DNA of 64,000 nucleotides from a virus: IMG/VR virus record IMGVR_UViG_3300031963_000080, positions 1 to 64,000 of that record; one strand, given 5' to 3'. Positions 11,460 to 44,696 of this stretch are shown piece after piece; the stretch's first letter is position 1, and every line of letters starts with the position of its first letter. Below the pieces are notes generated by a model. The model made no database searches and had not been told where the DNA came from. It was given only the letters and a program-made list of their open reading frames with translations. The translations under genes were made by a program, and so were the position numbers.

Positions 11460-12277
11460 TATTTTTCCAAGTAAGTTTTATAAATGTAATCTTCATTGAT
11501 AAGAAAGTTCTCAACAATTTCTAGATTTTCTTTTACCGCATCAAGTTTATCATAGTACAGTTCCTCTGTCAACTGAGAAAGATCAAAGTCATCAGTGAGT
11601 ATGATGATGCCTTTTGGATTGAAAAACTTTCCAATATCGGGAGAACCATAATAAATTGGAATGGTCCCAGTAGCAAAACAATCTTGAATCTTTTCTGTAA
11701 AATAAGATTCATAAGAAGCATTTTCGATGGCCACAGAAAACATATAATCTACTAGACCCTCTTCCTTAGATTCAATTTCATTGAATCCCCTACCATAAAA
11801 ATCAACTTTACCTTGAAGTTTTTGTGCCCAAGCCAGACGATATTGATGTCCCTCACACATTACCTTGTTAGAGCAAATCATGGAGACTAATTTAGTTTTA
11901 TCATATAGTTTTGGTTCGGCGATCCAACTTCCATACAAAGGAGCAAACTTAAACTTAGAATGTAATTTAAGTAAATCTTTATGATGCGTAAAAATTGCAT
12001 CATAAACTCGAACATAATAGAGGTAATTTCTCTTCACATCTTCAATGACATCTGGACAAATATTTGCAGATTCTAATAACCAGGCATATTTCCTTTTGCT
12101 GTGCGTGTCATCAAAAGCAAGACTAATGTAGCGGTCTATATAAAAAGTTTCTTCTGCTCCAGAATCAACCCACTTTATGAACTTTGATTCTTGTCTATGA
12201 ATAGATGATGCTTTGTTGTTATTGTCGTAGTTGTTAAACCCACCACCAACTAAATTATATTTCTTTTTAATAGTCAT
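11459..12277 (-). CDS. GT10-like fucosyltransferase (alpha-1,3/1,4 type)
   Basis: 272 aa. The C-terminal half carries the GT10 hallmark ENASYESYFTEKI followed by FATGTIPIYYGSPDI, the GDP-fucose binding block of alpha-1,3-fucosyltransferases. N-terminal half is variable, as in the family. First gene of the minus-strand glycan operon 12.3-8.2 kb, diverging from the plus-strand transferase at 12304. Confidence 0.82.
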   Translation of the reverse strand: MTIKKKYNLVGGGFNNYDNNNKASSIHRQESKFIKWVDSGAEETFYIDRYISLAFDDTHSKRKYAWLLESANICPDVIEDVKRNYLYYVRVYDAIFTHHKDLLKLHSKFKFAPLYGSWIAEPKLYDKTKLVSMICSNKVMCEGHQYRLAWAQKLQGKVDFYGRGFNEIESKEEGLVDYMFSVAIENASYESYFTEKIQDCFATGTIPIYYGSPDIGKFFNPKGIIILTDDFDLSQLTEELYYDKLDAVKENLEIVENFLINEDYIYKTYLEK

Positions 12278-19798: not shown

Positions 19799-19936
19799 TC
19801 AGGTCTGCCATGCACGCCACCAATTCTTTAACTGGAAATTGGAAACCAGGCGGGAGTAACCTCCACATCCGCACCAGTCGTCATATTTAATGTCCATACG
19901 ACGAGGACAATTTTGGGTCACAATTGGCTCCACCAC
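19799..19936 (-). CDS. Small Cys/Trp-rich protein, 45 aa
   Basis: Starts with GTG right after the previous TAA (TAAGTG), so it is probably coupled; GTG codons at 19933 and 19921 and an ATG at 19897 are alternatives. The product has NCPRRMDIKYDDWCGCGG, three Cys in a pattern that could bind zinc, then NFQLKNWWRAWQT. No family recognised. Ends at a terminator. Confidence 0.5.
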   Translation of the reverse strand: MVEPIVTQNCPRRMDIKYDDWCGCGGYSRLVSNFQLKNWWRAWQT

Positions 19937-20468: not shown

Positions 20469-20497
20469 ATTATAAGAGAGAATTGGTGAGATGTCAA
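20469..20497 (-). promoter_or_regulatory. Consensus promoter
   Basis: TTGACA (20497-20492), 17-bp spacer, TATAAT (20474-20469), about 15 bp before the predicted RNA reaches the ATG at 20446. Both boxes are perfect matches. Confidence 0.92.
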
Positions 20498-21372: not shown

Positions 21373-21448
21373 TCCGGATACTCAGATTTGAACTGAGATT
21401 ATTCCTGCTCCCAAAGCAGGTGCCATGACCAAGTTAGGCGATATCCGG
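21373..21448 (-). tRNA. tRNA-Pro (anticodon TGG)
   Basis: Cloverleaf: acceptor CCGGATA/TATCCGG, anticodon arm CCTGC-TTTGGGA-GCAGG with TGG at 34-36, T-arm CTCAG-TTCAAAT-CTGAG, discriminator A. 76 nt, CCA not encoded. Reads CCA/CCN codons. Confidence 0.93.
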
Positions 21449-21482
21449 GAATTTAAGCTATTTATTATTTGAGTGTATGACC

Positions 21483-21511
21483 ATAATACCAAAGATAGGA
21501 ACCATTGTCAA
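21483..21511 (-). promoter_or_regulatory. Consensus promoter for tRNA-Pro
   Basis: TTGACA (21511-21506), 17-bp spacer, TATTAT (21488-21483). The RNA would start about 28 bp before the tRNA and could run on into the antitoxin gene. Confidence 0.87.
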
Positions 21512-21561
21512 GAGAAAACAGAGAGTCCCTAAAAATAGACTATTGTTTAATAGTGTTCCAA

Positions 21562-21684
21562 TCAGATGTCCCATTCTTCTTTTTCGTCTTCATAAGTACA
21601 TGGTTCTTCAAAGAGTTCAATCATTTTTTGCTGTAGAACTCTCTGTTGCAATTTTTCTATATCTTCTTCTGTTAATTCAATCAC
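21562..21684 (-). CDS. Small acidic protein, 40 aa
   Basis: GTG at 21684 overlaps the stop of the upstream gene (GTGA). Product is acidic and helical (IELTEEDIEKLQQRVLQQKM ... YEDEKEEWDI). Followed by a weak hairpin (ACTATT/AATAGT). Function unknown. Confidence 0.5.
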   Translation of the reverse strand: MIELTEEDIEKLQQRVLQQKMIELFEEPCTYEDEKEEWDI

Positions 21685-21839
21685 TTATATTTGCCTTCTC
21701 CTCCAAGAAATTTTTCTAGTGGATCTTTTCTTGTTTTTGATATTTCCACGGCTCTTTTATAAAACATATTATCCGTATTACCAGAAGCTTCGAATGTGGC
21801 TTTTATTTTTAACCAATTTTCGTATGTCCGTTGGTCCAT
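21681..21839 (-). CDS. Small hypothetical protein, 52 aa
   Basis: ATG at 21839, TGA at 21681-21683. Contains a short helical domain (YENWLKIKATFEASG ... FYKRAVEISKTRKDPLEKFL) and has GGAGG near its end, which serves the coupled gene downstream. Promoter at 21863-21890. Confidence 0.55.
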   Translation of the reverse strand: MDQRTYENWLKIKATFEASGNTDNMFYKRAVEISKTRKDPLEKFLGGEGKYK

Positions 21840-21862
21840 TAGAATATATCATATTATCACTA

Positions 21863-21890
21863 ATTATAATTGGTAAATTCTCAGTGTCAA
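21863..21890 (-). promoter_or_regulatory. Promoter TTGACA-16-TATAAT
   Basis: TTGACA (21890-21885) and TATAAT (21868-21863) with a 16-bp spacer, upstream of the two coupled small genes. Confidence 0.82.
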
Positions 21891-21907
21891 TCATATGTCA
21901 CGAAATC

Positions 21908-22279
21908 TTAATAACCGTGATTGATAATAGTTTTCGTGTACTTCCTTAAAATCTCTCCGGCTCTAGAATTTGCTTCATTTTCGCATTCACTTCCAGTTTC
22001 TCCGCTCATTTCTTTTCCACTTTGTTTTTGATGATAATGTACAAGTTCATGCGCAAGAGTTCTATAAACATCTAATGGATGTCTTTGTGCAGTCTGAATT
22101 TTAATCTCGTCCGTGCCAAGATTAAAACAACCAAAAGTTTTATTGTCAATTGAGAACTTGGGATCATCTATTACAATAACTTTTGGTAAAGTAGATAACC
22201 CAAGTTCATCCTTGACAAAATTCATAAAATCTTTAACTTGAACCTTTTTTGATTCAGTAAGAAACTCTTTGAATCTCAT
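21908..22279 (-). CDS. Zinc metallopeptidase-like protein with capsid-targeting-like N-terminus
   Basis: 123 aa. Zinc motif HELVHYHQ (HExxH) at about residue 77, followed by SECENEANSRAGEIL, where a downstream Glu could be the third ligand, as in SprT/gluzincin-like peptidases. The N-terminus MRFKEFLTES resembles the T4 internal-protein capsid-targeting peptide, with a gp21-type cleavage site LTE. A late-type promoter lies upstream. Predicted to be packaged in the head and injected (inference). Confidence 0.72.
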   Translation of the reverse strand: MRFKEFLTESKKVQVKDFMNFVKDELGLSTLPKVIVIDDPKFSIDNKTFGCFNLGTDEIKIQTAQRHPLDVYRTLAHELVHYHQKQSGKEMSGETGSECENEANSRAGEILRKYTKTIINHGY

Positions 22280-22291
22280 GAGTTTTTTATG

Positions 22292-22299
22292 TATTTATC
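22292..22299 (-). promoter_or_regulatory. Late promoter-like box GATAAATA
   Basis: One base off the TATAAATA consensus, about 13 bp before the metallopeptidase ATG, within the 3' end of the upstream gene. Confidence 0.5.
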
Positions 22300-22546
22300 T
22301 GACTTCAAAATCTAATCTACGAACCTTTCTTTGTCTTCTGGCCTCCTGCCACATAATGTCTTCATTTGTTAATACTTTTGTTGATTCTTTTTGTGCGGGA
22401 GAATTCAACATGACAATTTTCGATAAATCTACTGCAGATATTTTATCTTCTTTTATTGTTGCCATATTGGGACAACCACAAGACTTCGACTGGCCAGGTC
22501 TTGCCGTCACTTCAGTATTGCACTGTTTGCATCTTATCTTTAACAT
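22295..22546 (-). CDS. Zinc-ribbon protein, 83 aa
   Basis: N-terminal CKQCNTEVTARPGQSKSCGC forms a compact four-Cys zinc ribbon. The rest is helical with a basic C-terminus (QEARRQRKVRRLDFEVR). Probably nucleic-acid or protein binding. Preceded by an exact late promoter. Confidence 0.65.
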   Translation of the reverse strand: MLKIRCKQCNTEVTARPGQSKSCGCPNMATIKEDKISAVDLSKIVMLNSPAQKESTKVLTNEDIMWQEARRQRKVRRLDFEVR

Positions 22547-22576
22547 TTCTATTCATTATGAATATTTGCGTTTGAT

Positions 22577-22584
22577 TATTTATA
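22577..22584 (-). promoter_or_regulatory. Late promoter TATAAATA
   Basis: Exact late-box match about 30 bp upstream of the zinc-ribbon ATG, directly after the tRNA-cluster terminator. Confidence 0.75.
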
Positions 22585-22586
22585 AT

Positions 22587-22612
22587 AAAAAAGCCCACGC
22601 AATGTGAGCTTT
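22587..22612 (-). terminator. Terminator of the tRNA-Gly/Asn transcript
   Basis: AAAGCTCAC pairs with GTGGGCTTT (one G-T wobble, 5-nt loop) followed by T-rich sequence on the minus strand. Confidence 0.8.
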
Positions 22613-22645
22613 TAAAGAATAGATATAAGATTTAACATATTTTAA

Positions 22646-22718
22646 CTCCCCCAGTCCGACTCGAACGAACAACCCCAGAGTTAACAGCTCCGTGCTCTGC
22701 CAATTGAGCTATAGGGGA
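22646..22718 (-). tRNA. tRNA-Asn (anticodon GTT)
   Basis: Acceptor TCCCCTA/TGGGGGA, D-arm GCTC/GAGC, anticodon arm CGGAG-CTGTTAA-CTCTG, T-arm GTTCG-TTCGAGT-CGGAC, discriminator G. 73 nt. No promoter directly upstream; co-transcribed with tRNA-Gly. Confidence 0.95.
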
Positions 22719-22722
22719 ATGT

Positions 22723-22793
22723 AGGAAGTTACTGGACTTACACCAGTTCGAAGGGCATTGTCTGCTTGTCTCGATTCTTTGACTTAACTTCCT
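22723..22793 (-). ncRNA. tRNA-like structured RNA between tRNA-Gly and tRNA-Asn
   Basis: On the minus strand, 8 bp AGGAAGTT/AACTTCCT close the element. The 3' part is a perfect 5-bp stem with a 7-nt loop (ACTGG-TGTAAGT-CCAGT), placed like a T-arm next to the acceptor. A GTC/GAC D-like stem is also possible. The T-loop lacks TTCRA and there is no good anticodon arm, so it is not a working tRNA. A further hairpin GTTAGG/CCTAAC lies just upstream (22804-22822). Could be a decayed tRNA or a stable small RNA such as T4's RNA C/D. Confidence 0.45.
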
Positions 22794-22832
22794 TTGGTCT
22801 TCAGTTAGGATACATACCTAACAAACACCAAA

Positions 22833-22903
22833 AGCGAAATACGGGATTCGAACCCGTGACACCAACTTGGAAGGATGGGATGTTACCACTACACCAATTT
22901 CGC
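22833..22903 (-). tRNA. tRNA-Gly (anticodon TCC)
   Basis: Acceptor GCGAAAT/ATTTCGC, anticodon loop CTTCCAA with TCC, T-arm ACGGG-TTCGAAT-CCCGT. 71 nt. Confidence 0.95.
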
Positions 22904-22912
22904 AATAAAACA

Positions 22913-22941
22913 ATCATACCATATTTATGAATGACTGCCAA
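22913..22941 (-). promoter_or_regulatory. Promoter for tRNA-Gly/Asn
   Basis: TTGGCA (22941-22936), 17-bp spacer, TATGAT (22918-22913), 10 bp before the tRNA. The spacer also contains CATAAATA, a late-like box. Confidence 0.72.
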
Positions 22942-22946
22942 ACTTA

Positions 22947-23135
22947 TCAAGAGTTTTTTTGTATTACTTCAAGATCAGTTCCAATAGCACGAAGCCATGT
23001 ATTTAAATTCTCCATAACAAATTCATCATCTGGATTTTCAAAATTGATACGAATATCACGGATTGTATCGTGGTTTTCATTCCTGGCGGAATAACCAAGA
23101 TCATAGTTTGTGTTCACAACTTGTTTTTTGGGCAT
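22947..23135 (-). CDS. Small hypothetical protein, 62 aa
   Basis: ATG at 23135. Basic N-terminus (MPKKQVVN) and acidic remainder (INFENPDDEFVMENLNTWLRAIGTDLEVIQ). Lies between tRNA genes. No family recognised. Confidence 0.5.
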   Translation of the reverse strand: MPKKQVVNTNYDLGYSARNENHDTIRDIRINFENPDDEFVMENLNTWLRAIGTDLEVIQKNS

Positions 23136-23176
23136 AATCAATTAAGAATGTAATACGGAGATATTTCAGTATCTCA

Positions 23177-23256
23177 TGCTCGAAACAGGAGTCGAACCTG
23201 CAAGCCGAAGCGGTTGATTTTGAGTCAACTGTGTATACCAATTCCACCATTCGAGC
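23177..23256 (-). tRNA. tRNA-Leu (anticodon CAA)
   Basis: Acceptor GCTCGAA/TTCGAGC, anticodon arm GTTGA-CTCAAAA-TCAAC, variable arm present, T-arm GCAGG-TTCGACT-CCTGT, discriminator A. 80 nt. Its 5' end abuts the encoded CCA of the split tRNA. Confidence 0.94.
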
Positions 23257-23296
23257 TGGCGTCTCAGGTTGGATTCGAACCAACGACCAACTGCTT
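23257..23296 (-). pseudogene. 3' half of an interrupted tRNA
   Basis: Reads AAGCAGTTGGTC, a perfect T-arm GTTGG-TTCGAAT-CCAAC, acceptor strand CTGAGAC, discriminator G and an encoded CCA. Its acceptor strand is the exact complement of GTCTCAG at 23901-23895. The segment codes the last residues of the nuclease gene (VVGSNPT), which stops inside it. Confidence 0.85.
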
Positions 23297-23710
23297 ATCA
23301 GGAATACTAAGATAATCTTCAGCCAAGTTTATACCAATTTTTTGATTATTCTTGGGAGGAACTAATCTTAGGACAAATGTGTTACTACAATCATTTGGAT
23401 TTATGTAGTAACACATATCTGTGTCTGGACAGTAGACGCACATTACATCAATTTCATTTTTATCATAATTTTGAGTATGTGTTCCATTTTTATCTGTCCA
23501 GCAAGTCCTGAATGGAACTTCTATTTTACCATCTTTTGATGCTCTATACTTGACTTGAACTCTTAAAAAGTTTCCATCTTTGTAGGCAACAAGATCAAAG
23601 GCAGAATGTTCTGTATGAGGAGTAAGAATTAAGTATCCTTTCTCATATAGATCAAGTTGTGCTTTTAGGACTCCAAGATCTCCTTTGTTTTTAGTATGAT
23701 GTTCCCTCAT
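23264..23710 (-). CDS. PD-(D/E)XK homing-type endonuclease inserted in a tRNA
   Basis: 148 aa. Start region HTKNKGDLGVLKAQLDLYEKG and the core SAFDLVAYKDGNFLRVQVKYR give the Asp and QxK of the PD-(D/E)XK fold in the arrangement of the I-Ssp6803I type, which is encoded in a tRNA-fMet group I intron of Synechocystis. Four Cys follow. The last codons lie within a tRNA 3' half. An exact late box TATAAATA is 22 bp upstream, recalling late expression of I-TevI in T4. It probably cuts tRNA genes lacking the insertion (inference). Confidence 0.78.
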   Translation of the reverse strand: MREHHTKNKGDLGVLKAQLDLYEKGYLILTPHTEHSAFDLVAYKDGNFLRVQVKYRASKDGKIEVPFRTCWTDKNGTHTQNYDKNEIDVMCVYCPDTDMCYYINPNDCSNTFVLRLVPPKNNQKIGINLAEDYLSIPDKQLVVGSNPT

Positions 23711-23731
23711 ACAAGTAACGATATCTCTTAT

Positions 23732-23739
23732 TATTTATA
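23732..23739 (-). promoter_or_regulatory. Late promoter TATAAATA for the endonuclease
   Basis: Exact late-box match, start expected about 15 bp before the ATG at 23710. It lies inside a small inverted repeat (CTCTTATAAATAATAAGAG). Confidence 0.72.
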
Positions 23740-23764
23740 AGAGTAGCAACTTACCAGTATGTTA

Positions 23765-23866
23765 CTCAGAACAACCAACAGGCTCACCTGGAATCGAACC
23801 AGGGACATTCGCTTAGAAGGCGAAGGTTATATCCGCTTAACTATGAGCCCAAGCGGTTGTTCTAAG
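23765..23866. repeat. 12-bp inverted repeat bracketing tRNA-Arg
   Basis: Arms at 23765-23776 and 23855-23866 are complementary over 12 bp with one G-T wobble (minus strand CTTAGAACAACC and GGTTGTTCTGAG). They enclose the complete tRNA-Arg, and the outer arm overlaps the last two anticodon bases of the interrupted tRNA. Could be the edge of an inserted cassette or an RNA stem. Confidence 0.85.
23779..23850 (-). tRNA. tRNA-Arg (anticodon TCT), intact copy inside the insertion
   Basis: Acceptor GGGCTCA/TGAGCCT, D-arm GTTA/TAAC, anticodon arm TTCGC-CTTCTAA-GCGAA, T-arm CCTGG-TTCGATT-CCAGG, discriminator G. 72 nt. It has the same anticodon as the interrupted tRNA around it but an unrelated body. 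Confidence 0.93.
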
Positions 23867-23901
23867 AAATCAGATACTCTATCCAAGTGAGCTACTGAGA
23901 C
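23865..23901 (-). pseudogene. 5' half of the interrupted tRNA, anticodon TCT
   Basis: Acceptor GTCTCAG, TA, D-arm GCTC-ACTTGGATA-GAGT, then TCTGA and T-T-TCT, giving anticodon TCT (Arg) at positions 34-36. Continuation after the anticodon is not a tRNA. Joined to 23257-23296 it would give a nearly complete cloverleaf with CTG/CAG in the anticodon stem. Confidence 0.82.
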
Positions 23902-23909
23902 ATAAGACA

Positions 23910-23938
23910 ATCATAAGACATTTATCTTAGATTGTCAA
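23910..23938 (-). promoter_or_regulatory. Promoter for the split tRNA/tRNA-Arg unit
   Basis: TTGACA (23938-23933), 17-bp spacer, TATGAT (23915-23910), then the leader TGTCTTAT directly joined to the tRNA 5' half. Confidence 0.88.
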
Positions 23939-23939
23939 G

Positions 23940-24013
23940 TGGAAACACTGGGGATTGAACCCAGAACCTCACGCTTATAAGGCGTGTGCTCTAACCAGTT
24001 GAGCTATGTTTCC
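23940..24013 (-). tRNA. tRNA-Ile (anticodon TAT)
   Basis: 74-nt canonical cloverleaf: acceptor GGAAACA/TGTTTCC, D-arm GCTC/GAGC, anticodon arm CACGC-CTTATAA-GCGTG, T-arm CTGGG-TTCAATC-CCCAG, discriminator A. Reads the rare codon ATA. Confidence 0.95.
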
Positions 24014-24022
24014 GATAAGACA

Positions 24023-24051
24023 ATTATAAGGCAGAACCTTGGAATTGTCAA
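24023..24051 (-). promoter_or_regulatory. Perfect consensus promoter for tRNA-Ile
   Basis: TTGACA (24051-24046), 17-bp spacer, TATAAT (24028-24023) followed by TGTCTTATC and the tRNA 5' end. Confidence 0.95.
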
Positions 24052-24052
24052 G

Positions 24053-24136
24053 TGCGAGTAGGGAGACTCGAACTCCCACGGGATTAACTCCCAACGGATT
24101 TTAAGTCCGGTGCGGCTACCATTACGCCATACTCGC
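24053..24136 (-). tRNA. tRNA-Leu (anticodon TAA)
   Basis: Acceptor GCGAGTA/TACTCGC, anticodon arm CCGGA-CTTAAAA-TCCGT, long variable arm TGGGAGTTAATCCC, T-arm GGGAG-TTCGAGT-CTCCC, discriminator A. 84 nt. Confidence 0.95.
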
Positions 24137-24146
24137 GGATAAGACA

Positions 24147-24175
24147 ATTATAGATCATAAGATCGAAATTGTCAA
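24147..24175 (-). promoter_or_regulatory. Perfect consensus promoter for tRNA-Leu(TAA)
   Basis: TTGACA (24175-24170), 17-bp spacer, TATAAT (24152-24147) followed by TGTCTTATC and the tRNA 5' end. Confidence 0.95.
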
Positions 24176-41868: not shown

Positions 41869-44353
41869 GTGTTGTTTTTTTCTCAATATTCCAACCAATA
41901 ATATCTAGAATCGCTCTCAATGGTTTGAGGAAGGTCTTTTCAAACTGCATTTCATAATCTACATATTTTTTTAGTTCAAACTCTGGAGGCAAAGTTTGAA
42001 TAAAAGCAATTACATTTTCGTGAATTGGATTTGGTAATTTGAGATAACAAAACTTAATTTTTTCTCCATTTTTAATCATTGAATATTTTTTCTGTAGCTT
42101 ATATTCTTTGATGTAATGATTATAGAGAATTGATCCTCTAACATGAATTGGCGTAGACTTGACATACATAGTCAAATTAGATTTAAATTTTGTCAATTCA
42201 TTTACTGACTTGGGAAAAGAAACTTCTTCCGGAGTCAATTCGAAAAAATCTCTTCTTGCAGTCGAAATGAAATCAATCAATTCATCTTCAGTCGATGTCA
42301 TAATAAGCTTAATTGCTTTTTTAATCCTATCTCGACAGAAAGCAGGAGTAGAAGATCTAATAGCTTCGATTCCAGTCATAGCCAGCTCTGGCTCTGAATA
42401 TCTTACTCCCTCATTGTCCCAAACATTAGCAATGTATCTTTTTTTAGAAATAAAAACTGCTCGATCAGTTATCTTTTCTCGTTTCATATGCAATTTGTGT
42501 GCATATGCATTCAGATATTCTGCTAGTTCTTTATAAGAACAATCAACATATTCTTGAATTTTTGTAGAGAAAATTTGATCCAGAAAATCAATAATTTCCA
42601 ATTTGGATGGATTTTTGTTTTTATAAATCATGTCCACTAATGGCTTCATGTTCAAAAATGCAGAATCAGTGTCACAATACACAACATAATCAGTATCTTC
42701 AGTTTTCAAAATTTTATTGAGATACTGATTGAATTTCATTTCAATCCAACGAATTGCTAGCTGTCCAGTGTAAGTTACTGCCTCTGCGTTTCTCAGATCA
42801 TAAAACCTAAAATATGGATTCCCAGTTGCACCATAGCAAGAATTCAAACAAACTTTAATTGATTGCTCCTTAACACTATACATCGAAATTTGCTTCTTGA
42901 GTTTAACTTCATGAGTTTTTTCATACTCCTTTTTCAACTCTTTCATCTTATCTTTGTATAGTTTCCTTTTCTGGAACATCTTATCAAGAAGTTCAGGAAG
43001 AAATCCCATTTTATCTTTTTTATACATTGATCCATTTGGACAAACAGAATATTGACAATCTGTTGGTATCCGTGTGGTTTTATCCAAGATAGAATCAATT
43101 GATATATTAGAAAATCGTTTCTCAACTAATGTGTCTGGACTTATATTCAATCCCATCATAATATGAGGATAAAGAGAAGTTAAGTCCATGCTTACAACAT
43201 AATCATAAGAACCAGGAATCGGCTCTTTTACAAATGCACCCACAAATTTGTCTGACTTCTCTTTCCCCTCGCCTTTCAATGGGATCACAATATTTTTACG
43301 ACGAAGGTAGTTGTAAATGATAGTATCCCACATTCTAACCTGATAGAAAACATCTTCAAAATTAGTTTTAGAATCATATGCGAGCATGATTGCCAATTCA
43401 ACCATGTGAAGCTTATCTTCTAGTTTGTTGACGAGTTCAGTGTCAATGACATTATATTCTACGAATGTGTCCCAATCACTATCATAAAAATCCTTAAAAG
43501 TTTCATATTGACTATGATCCAATTTATTTTGACCTAGCTCATTAAATGCAATCGTATCTAGTCTAAAGTTTTCAGGTTTTTTGAATGAATATTTTTTATA
43601 TAGATCGAAATAATCTATAATAGATACTCCAAAAATATCATAGATTGTTTGTTTTTCGCCTATTCTAACTTCAACTTGCTTATCGGAAATCCAGTTATAA
43701 GGAGACAACTTTCTCGTTTCTTTTTCTCCTATTAATCTGTACATCCTACCAATGATGTAAGCAAAGTCATAGTATAGACAATTCCAACCAGTAACGATCT
43801 CTGGTGTATTGTTTTGCCAAAAATCAAGAAAAGAATAAATTAGAGCAGTTTCATCTACACAATAAAAATACTTATGATTTTCTAGTTTTTTTCCGAATTT
43901 CCTGGTTCCCCAAGTATAGATTTTTTTCGATACATAATCTTGGATTGTAATCAGTAAAATTTCTTCATCACAAGTTTTTGGGTCAGGGAATCCATTTTCA
44001 GAAGAAACCTCAATATCTATTGCCCAAATAGAAATTCTAGAAATGTCATAATCAATTTGTTCTTCCGAATAATTGTCTGAAATATACTGATAGATTGGAG
44101 TTTCATTTCCATAAATTTTAAATCCCTCTACATCTTTATACTTATCAACATATTCTCTAGATTCTTTGATCGTTCCTGGTTGAATTGGTTTTACACATTT
44201 TCCATCTAATGTCTTATATTCTGTTTTTACATTAGATGAAACATAAAAGGTAGGATGATAATCTACCGTTTGAGTGAATTTTTCTCCATTTTCATACCCT
44301 CGAACATAGATCTTATTCCCGAGTTGTTTGACATTTGTGTACCAACGCATCAC
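41849..44353 (-). CDS. DNA polymerase, T4 gp43 family B
   Basis: 834 aa, uninterrupted. Exonuclease site IWAIDIEVSSENG, then Exo II in WNCLYYDFAYI, polymerase motif A SMDLTSLYPHIM, motif B KVCLNSCYGATGN and motif C YVVYCDTDSAFL. Begins 4 bp inside the small Sm-like gene. No intron or intein seen. Confidence 0.97.
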   Translation of the reverse strand: MMRWYTNVKQLGNKIYVRGYENGEKFTQTVDYHPTFYVSSNVKTEYKTLDGKCVKPIQPGTIKESREYVDKYKDVEGFKIYGNETPIYQYISDNYSEEQIDYDISRISIWAIDIEVSSENGFPDPKTCDEEILLITIQDYVSKKIYTWGTRKFGKKLENHKYFYCVDETALIYSFLDFWQNNTPEIVTGWNCLYYDFAYIIGRMYRLIGEKETRKLSPYNWISDKQVEVRIGEKQTIYDIFGVSIIDYFDLYKKYSFKKPENFRLDTIAFNELGQNKLDHSQYETFKDFYDSDWDTFVEYNVIDTELVNKLEDKLHMVELAIMLAYDSKTNFEDVFYQVRMWDTIIYNYLRRKNIVIPLKGEGKEKSDKFVGAFVKEPIPGSYDYVVSMDLTSLYPHIMMGLNISPDTLVEKRFSNISIDSILDKTTRIPTDCQYSVCPNGSMYKKDKMGFLPELLDKMFQKRKLYKDKMKELKKEYEKTHEVKLKKQISMYSVKEQSIKVCLNSCYGATGNPYFRFYDLRNAEAVTYTGQLAIRWIEMKFNQYLNKILKTEDTDYVVYCDTDSAFLNMKPLVDMIYKNKNPSKLEIIDFLDQIFSTKIQEYVDCSYKELAEYLNAYAHKLHMKREKITDRAVFISKKRYIANVWDNEGVRYSEPELAMTGIEAIRSSTPAFCRDRIKKAIKLIMTSTEDELIDFISTARRDFFELTPEEVSFPKSVNELTKFKSNLTMYVKSTPIHVRGSILYNHYIKEYKLQKKYSMIKNGEKIKFCYLKLPNPIHENVIAFIQTLPPEFELKKYVDYEMQFEKTFLKPLRAILDIIGWNIEKKTTLDSFFV

Positions 44354-44646
44354 TTTCTAATTAGAATTTTGTATTTATCGAGAATTGAAGTTTTTGGGTC
44401 AATGATTGTAAGTATTTTATCTGAGCTCATTAAAAATACTTTTTGTTCTGTTACTTCCATTAGCCATGGTCTTAGCGTAATTGTTTCCAAAAGTTTATCA
44501 GTAACAATTAGATATGGGTCAGAAAGTTTACAATTTGGTTCTCCTATATCTGCTACCACTTCTTCAATTTTAGCTATTAGTCTTTGCCCATTTTCTAAGA
44601 CTAACAATTTTACAAATTCATTAGACTCAATGGCTGCCTCTTCCAT
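44350..44646 (-). CDS. Sm-like small protein before gp43
   Basis: 98 aa, beta-rich: KLLVLENGQRLIAKIEEV, DPYLIVTDKLLETITLRPWL, KVFLMSSDKILTIIDPK. This order resembles an Sm/LSm fold, and the gene at 55786-56187 encodes a longer relative. It is ATGA-coupled to the polymerase gene, so it may bind RNA or regulate replication genes (inference). Confidence 0.6.
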   Translation of the reverse strand: MEEAAIESNEFVKLLVLENGQRLIAKIEEVVADIGEPNCKLSDPYLIVTDKLLETITLRPWLMEVTEQKVFLMSSDKILTIIDPKTSILDKYKILIRK

Positions 44647-44667: not shown

Positions 44668-44696
44668 ATTATAGCACAAAAAAATGGGGGAGTCAA
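44668..44696 (-). promoter_or_regulatory. Promoter of the gp43 operon, fused to a terminator
   Basis: TTGACT (44696-44691), 17-bp spacer containing T7, TATAAT (44673-44668). The -35 box lies in the 3' arm of the upstream terminator. The -10 region is bracketed by CCCCCATT/AATGGGGG. Confidence 0.85.

Follow-up and report, generated by a model that had tools for sequence, protein, structure and literature searches.

A stem-loop superimposed on the promoters of tRNA genes in cyanophages

tRNA genes and promoter boxes of the window

The DNA analysed here is a stretch of 64,000 nucleotides (hereafter the window) from the IMG/VR virus record IMGVR_UViG_3300031963_000080, which is 79,031 bases long and has its affinity with T4-like cyanophages. 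The minus strand of the window carries seven transfer RNA (tRNA) genes, as detected by ARAGORN, and one split tRNA gene, which makes eight tRNA starts. Promoters in front of some of them had been described in a sequence-only reading of the same DNA. The main feature beyond that description is that promoter and stem-loop are superimposed.

Four tRNA units had been reported to carry TTGACA, a 17-bp spacer and a TATAAT-like box. Boxes were found at all four positions on the minus strand, the -10 box being TATTAT (ending at 21483), TATGAT (23910), TATAAT (24023) and TATAAT (24147), but the unit at 23910 fronts the 5' half of a split tRNA-Arg gene. The weaker box pair claimed for tRNA-Gly was recovered as TTGGCA-17-TATGAT at 22913. 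tRNA-Asn and tRNA-Leu(CAA) of the window have no such promoter. A box pair with at least 11 of 12 matches and N17 lay within 40 nt of four of the eight tRNA starts (binomial tail 9e-7, with the site rate of the minus strand itself as background). The minus strand has 17 such sites in all, and 13 of them lie away from tRNAs. Promoters of this kind are therefore not confined to tRNAs, and the presence of strong promoters of the same type elsewhere argues against a tRNA-only programme. In two units the -35 box adjoins the 3' end of the preceding tRNA, so that the size of a unit is merely 112-123 bp.

In the units at 23910, 24023 and 24147, TGTCTTAT follows directly on the -10 box. The sequence-only reading had placed it immediately between the -10 box and the tRNA; it is indeed there in three units, but touches the tRNA only in the split one, with one extra base intervening for tRNA-Ile and two for tRNA-Leu. 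The name 'shared leader' had to be given up, since TGTCTTAT is mainly one arm of a stem-loop and, by the predicted start site, would be mostly untranscribed.

The stem-loop, its covariation and its distribution

An inverted repeat, GACAATY..RATTGTC, is common to the three TGTCTTAT units. It reaches from the -35 box to a point slightly beyond the -10 box, which thus sits between the arms, with TGTC forming the 3' arm. The window copies have their arms in common and differ in their spacers. The stem-loops are listed in Table 1. That of tRNA-Gly gave -9.6 kcal/mol on the sense strand (z -3.05, 2 of 200 shuffles as stable) versus -2.4 on the antisense strand. When two promoters away from tRNAs with 12 of 12 matches, at 20497 and 26255, were treated in the same way, no fold was seen (z 1.68 and -0.05; 198 and 81 of 200 shuffles as stable).

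Among 18 non-redundant modules of the GACAAT family, 8 had an inner stem of greater stability than shuffled sequences at p<=0.05 (mean z -1.78). For the specificity test, sequences at least 75% identical were dropped, which reduced the tRNA promoters from 147 to 53 and the controls, taken from the same loci, from 238 to 120. Arms flanking the -10 box at p<=0.05 were present in 23 of the 53 tRNA promoters versus 8 of the 120 non-tRNA promoters (Fisher 3.4e-8). Without the GACAAT family, the counts were 14/43 for tRNA promoters versus 7/114 for non-tRNA promoters without TGTC (Fisher 5.9e-5). The arm sequences differ between tRNA families, and their complementarity is kept.

The tRNA-Ile(UAU) family has other arms on either side of the -10 box. 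With the fourteen arm bases left free, a complete scan returned 109 stretches and 63 unique sites, 58 of which have tRNA-Ile(UAU) 12-16 nt downstream; these 58 were used as the covariation set. Watson-Crick pairs occupied 379 of 406 cells, whereas 2000 partner shuffles gave a mean of 333 and a maximum of 351. Pair 4 was A-T in 17 sites, G-C in 36 and G-T in 5, and pair 5 was A-T in 35, G-C in 14, G-T in 8 and A-C in 1. At these two most variable pairs G.U thus exceeded A.C by 13 to 1 (p 0.002), an excess that favours a hairpin on the sense strand.

In the tRNA-Ile family the first helix is crossed by another one, which lies between the -35 and -10 boxes. Once the positions of this second helix had been freed, pairing was seen in 190 of 200 cells over 50 sites among the matches listed, with one double change; when the helix was slid by one or two positions, 3-111 of 200 cells were paired. 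Together, the two helices could form an H-type pseudoknot. Given the predicted start, the base-pair covariation lies over promoter DNA outside the promoter's own transcript, and it would therefore have been selected in read-through RNA or in another single-stranded role.

The exact module pattern was found in at least 119 IMG/VR stretches; one analysis used 80 of these and another used all. The 80 loci hold 85 sites, of which 53 lie 7-12 nt upstream of a tRNA and 6 at 41-163 nt, the remaining 26 having no tRNA within 300 nt. Because the exact pattern had a fixed spacing, the palindrome was rescanned with a free gap of 5-35, leaving TT (the TT preceding GACAAT), TAT and the gap all unfixed (two IMG/VR scans, 80 listed loci each). 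Among the matches listed, the tRNA-followed sites had a gap of 17 in 38 of 39 cases (one had 16), with TT and TAT in 39/39 each; sites not followed by a tRNA had scattered gaps, 17 occurring in 17/94. The exact-module, free-gap and freed second-helix scans give lower bounds. Cultured carriers include S-SKS1 (Asn to Pro), S-SCSM2R (Leu to Gly) and S-CAM7 (Met to Ala). The earlier proposal of a repeated expression module is supported: a unit of promoter and tRNA exists, and it recurs across many cyanophages, viruses of cyanobacteria from oceans and lakes.

Some modules without a close tRNA precede open reading frames (ORFs), as read from the sequence. At three loci an abiF RNA (RF03085) stands behind the same module, just before a tRNA (L076 2634-2670, L048 471-507, L028 11857-11893); abiF in cyanophages is already in print for S-CREM1. 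Within the window, a non-tRNA promoter, TTGACT-17-TATAAT (44668-44696, minus strand), has arms CCCCCATT/AATGGGGG around its -10 box and lies upstream of a 98-aa ORF (44350-44646).

Table 1. Features of the tRNA region of the window, all on the minus strand
Feature	Position	Remarks
sigma-70-type promoter of tRNA-Leu(UAA), TTGACA-17-TATAAT	24147-24175	12/12; 10 nt from -10 end to tRNA
Stem-loop GACAATT..GATC/GATC..AATTGTC, tRNA-Leu(UAA)	24143-24173	-10.2 kcal/mol, z -4.9, 0/200 shuffles as stable
TGTCTTAT, 3' arm (TGTC) and probable start-site region	24139-24146	
tRNA-Leu(UAA)	24052-24136	
Promoter of tRNA-Ile(UAU), TTGACA-17-TATAAT, adjoining tRNA-Leu 3' end	24023-24051	12/12
Stem-loop GACAATT..AAGG/CCTT..AATTGTC, tRNA-Ile(UAU)	24019-24049	-11.2 kcal/mol, z -3.9, 0/200 shuffles as stable
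tRNA-Ile(UAU)	23939-24013	
Promoter of split tRNA-Arg, TTGACA-17-TATGAT	23910-23938	11/12
Stem-loop GACAATCTAAGA..TCTTA-T-GATTGTC, split tRNA-Arg	23906-23936	-13.4 kcal/mol, z -4.9, 0/200 shuffles as stable
5' half of tRNA-Arg(UCU), through the anticodon (GTCTCAG..GATTTCT)	23865-23901	intact homologues in 17 loci
568-nt insert with tRNA-Arg and PD-(D/E)XK endonuclease ORF	23297-23864	
Intact tRNA-Arg(UCU) nested in insert, flanked by inverted repeat CTTAGAACAACC/GGTTGTTCTGAG	23778-23851	
PD-(D/E)XK endonuclease ORF, 148 aa	23264-23710	PF11645 E 4.6e-38; 2ost_A E 7.8e-6
3' half of split tRNA-Arg, AAGCAGTTGG..CTGAGACG (AAGCAG..CTGAGACG)	23260-23296	21 bits, below gathering score
tRNA-Leu(CAA), without own promoter	23177-23256	
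Degenerate module of tRNA-Gly(UCC), TTGGCA-17-TATGAT, TGTTTTAT	22913-22941	
Stem-loop GGCAGTC..GATTGTT, tRNA-Gly	22909-22939	outer stem held by three G.U pairs
tRNA-Gly(UCC)	22833-22903	
Promoter of tRNA-Pro(UGG), TTGACA-17-TATTAT, 34 nt 5' of tRNA	21483-21511	11/12
Weak stem-loop over tRNA-Pro promoter	21478-21510	-8.0 kcal/mol, z -1.34, 21/200 shuffles as stable
tRNA-Pro(UGG)	21373-21448	

Transcription start, possible insulation and competing explanations

At position 7 past the -10 box, 99% of the 78 TGTC-family sites have A, and 87% of 60 other tRNA promoters have a purine. The conserved purine fits initiation at this position and a pre-tRNA with 2-4 extra nucleotides. TGTCTTAT would then lie mostly outside the transcribed leader, the start likely being its A, 7 nt past the -10 box. 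In the tRNA-Ile family the stem is followed by a short U-rich tail (T in 81, 79 and 72% at +2 to +4, n=58), and in the TGTC family by TTAT; both suggest termination.

On balance we consider it probable that the element is a composite of about 37 nt, in which a near-consensus sigma-70-type promoter and a superimposed sense-strand stem-loop insulate neighbouring tRNAs. RNA polymerase would take the A of TGTCTTAT, about 7 nt past the -10 box, as its start, and the resulting pre-tRNA would carry a 5' leader of 2 to 4 nt. Polymerase that ran on from the tRNA or gene before it would transcribe this DNA as a hairpin directly behind the upstream tRNA. This hairpin would not be part of the promoter's own transcript, and would be present only in read-through RNA or single-stranded DNA. 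Most likely it would insulate, either by termination or pausing or by tagging the 3' trailer as a processing target, and neighbouring tRNAs would thereby be made as separate units. One short element thus probably both separates a tRNA from its neighbour and switches that tRNA on, and it would move and be retained with the tRNA downstream.

More tentatively, the element might be a start/stop insulator in the strict sense, one promoter strand being a conserved RNA hairpin with the -10 box as its loop (in tRNA-Ile a possible H-type pseudoknot of independently covarying 4-bp and 7-bp helices), which would end or mark the upstream transcript and restart a near-leaderless tRNA. If true, tRNA units could be freely shuffled without polycistronic coupling. 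Such an element bears on the open question of the reason for tRNA arrays in large phages and of the control of each tRNA in them. From a compact, covarying promoter/stem-loop one would expect precisely placed start sites in cultured phages, with near-leaderless pre-tRNAs and tRNA units that can be separated; it would also mark likely joints of tRNA-unit exchange.

Several observations weigh against the composite reading. The stem-loop of tRNA-Pro in the window was not significant, and no significant palindrome was found in 30 of the 53 non-redundant tRNA promoters. Over all seven pairs of the tRNA-Ile stem, G.U counted 15 versus 7 for A.C, four of the latter falling at the pair that adjoins the -10 box. 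The site counts take in related phages, so that the p-values overstate independence. The U run is absent from some palindromes, for example those of S-CAM7 tRNA-Arg and of tRNA-Pro at loci L117 and L107, and a terminator scan of the window (a GC-containing stem and at least 5 T among the next 8 bases) flagged none of these hairpins. Since there are families without a U run and the hairpins were unflagged, termination would not be the general function, and plain intrinsic terminators were not supported by the scan.

The promoters may be real and the palindrome may act as DNA, as an operator bound by a protein or as a cruciform exposing the -10 box in its loop under supercoiling. Such a role would agree with the symmetry of the arms around the -10 box in DNA, and with the three window units folding about equally on either strand. 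We nevertheless regard it as unlikely. The arms vary by tRNA family with complementarity kept, unlike the site of one protein, so that a single protein operator is disfavoured; a cruciform, being formed from duplex, would favour neither strand, yet G.U prevails over A.C at the two most variable pairs and the tRNA-Gly element folds well on the sense strand only. Selection on the palindrome could also be dispensed with altogether, if the arms are kept matched by template switching at quasi-palindromes while phage DNA recombines. Correction of this kind is a mechanism of phage replication and would likewise yield matched double changes. It would, however, produce perfect arms and no excess of G.U, and non-tRNA promoters from these loci lack the palindrome (7/114). 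Further accounts would be required for the crossing helix and the U-rich tail, and we consider a functionless palindrome improbable.

Finally, the tRNAs could be cut from one long precursor, the hairpins being processing spacers and the boxes starting no transcription. Many cyanophage tRNAs are indeed 2-5 nt apart, too close for boxes, as in much of the S-SKS1 cluster, and the hairpins between adjacent tRNAs resemble sense-strand RNA. But TTG and TAT are conserved although the stem could form without them, as is the 17-bp spacing, a purine is conserved at the expected start, and tRNAs that stand first in an array (e.g., S-CAM7 tRNA-Arg) also have an element. A long precursor with silent boxes is thus very unlikely.

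The composite reading was compared with known systems. Its nearest known kind appear to be the PeSLs (promoter early stem-loops) of T4-type phages (Arbiol et al. 2010; Comeau et al.), which likewise combine a stem-loop with an early-type promoter, occur as repeats in the plastic regions of a T4-like phage and move with small gene units. Unlike in PeSLs, the present stem-loop and promoter occupy overlapping DNA, with an arm on either side of the -10 box; the arms covary, and the strongest association is with tRNA genes. The S-PM2 ORFanage is reported not to have the PeSL density of other T4-like phages (PMC4503421). Traits shared with PeSLs are the sigma-70-type promoter (predicted early, boxes 11-12/12) and a stem-loop joined to it. 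PeSL copies are near-identical within a genome, which does not apply to the window modules, as their spacers differ. Early promoters 5' of tRNA genes have already been reported in T4-like phages (PMC1524935); in the available portion of that text no stem-loop, per-tRNA module or 17-bp TTGACA consensus is described for the T4-type tRNA promoters, and the T4 early -35 box is GTTTAC-like, unlike the cyanophage TTGACA. No description of a superimposed, covarying hairpin over cyanophage tRNA promoters was found in the open-licence literature searched.

The promoters had also been called host-type. An exact-module scan of genome contigs listed titles mostly of Firmicutes and metagenome-assembled genomes, and only L194 was used, as a route to cyanobacterial genomes. 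Four of these (G147, G154, G175, G188) were chosen by CsoS2, not as known hosts of this phage. tRNA boxes with at least 10/12 matches were found in 0/39 cases in G147, in 1/30 in G154 (about 31% GC) and in 0/30 for loci of G175, G188 and G147. Palindromes at p<=0.05 occurred at 5/35 candidate tRNA boxes in G147 (1/4 for boxes of at least 9/12), and at 0/30 and 3/29 in further cyanobacterial samples. As tRNA promoters of the type TTGACA-17-TATAAT are missing from the four genomes sampled, the phage modules are probably not copies of host tRNA promoters, and on this sample a host origin was rejected. The cyanobacterial tRNA genes are mostly dispersed, in which they resemble the per-tRNA promoter units, and lack the phage boxes and spacing in the genomes sampled.

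Units had been proposed to be gained together with their promoters. When spacers were compared, mean identity was 0.741 if both tRNAs were the same (384 pairs), 0.635 for the same downstream but a different upstream tRNA (356 pairs), 0.489 for the same upstream tRNA only (19 pairs), and 0.439 for neither (1194 pairs); none of 500 label shuffles reached the observed downstream value. The spacer tracks the downstream tRNA more than the upstream one, which fits units moving with their promoters, although shared ancestry contributes and inflates the values.

The split tRNA-Arg gene and other features

The split tRNA-Arg is interrupted in its anticodon loop, between tRNA positions 36 and 37. In the 23910 unit the intact tRNA-Arg starts 58 nt on, beyond the 5' half, and the C-terminus of the endonuclease ORF runs into the 3' half of the split gene. 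The insert has a 92% match in Sf-FR1, which keeps the 5' junction. Loci L121 and L622 match the window. In L628 and L629 the insert has identical junctions and anticodon position, within a different tRNA-Arg, whereas L630-L635 and L637 have tRNA-Arg and the ORF without that junction, as far as upstream sequence shows (in this comparison L636 is truncated and L638 distant).

No match to the group I intron (RF00028) was obtained at E<=10 in window 23250-23945, and group I splicing of the split gene is thus not supported. The structure 2ost we take to be I-Ssp6803I. According to the accessible part of its description, I-Ssp6803I is the PD-(D/E)XK homing endonuclease of the group I intron in Synechocystis 6803 tRNA-fMet (PMC1995217). 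Like it, the insert encodes a PF11645 protein matching 2ost_A and is set in an anticodon loop; unlike that intron, it has no detectable group I intron and carries an intact tRNA-Arg(UCU). At 23260-23901 an endonuclease element appears to have broken a tRNA-Arg gene and supplied a replacement, and it looks more like a homing element with a substitute tRNA of its own than like a splicing intron.

Two other loci hold interrupted tRNA genes. In L028 a group I intron (RF00028, at gathering score; 11626-11827, minus strand) lies shortly after a tRNA-Arg-like 5' half with a module in front of it, and apparently interrupts the same kind of tRNA gene as is broken in the window. A tRNA-like gene in L022 (3740-3858, plus strand) has a short insert in its anticodon region that contains a T-arm-like hairpin, and is possibly the remnant of a similar insertion.

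Between tRNA-Pro and its promoter, AATAAATA (21449-21475, minus strand) resembles what we take to be a T4-type late promoter, and tRNA-Pro may have both an early and a late start. A conserved non-tRNA sequence lies between tRNA-Gly and tRNA-Asn (22720-22832, minus strand). It had no Rfam match at E<=1, and an exact 22-mer of it was found in 39 IMG/VR stretches (20 unique contexts), mostly in the same place. RNAalifold of 11 sequences gave a covarying hairpin and a cloverleaf-like core, which is closed by an 8-bp stem and contains a T-arm-like hairpin (5 bp, 7 nt). The window also carries a wcaG RNA (RF01761, 68.4 bits; 19806-19910, minus strand), a candidate riboswitch known from cyanophages.

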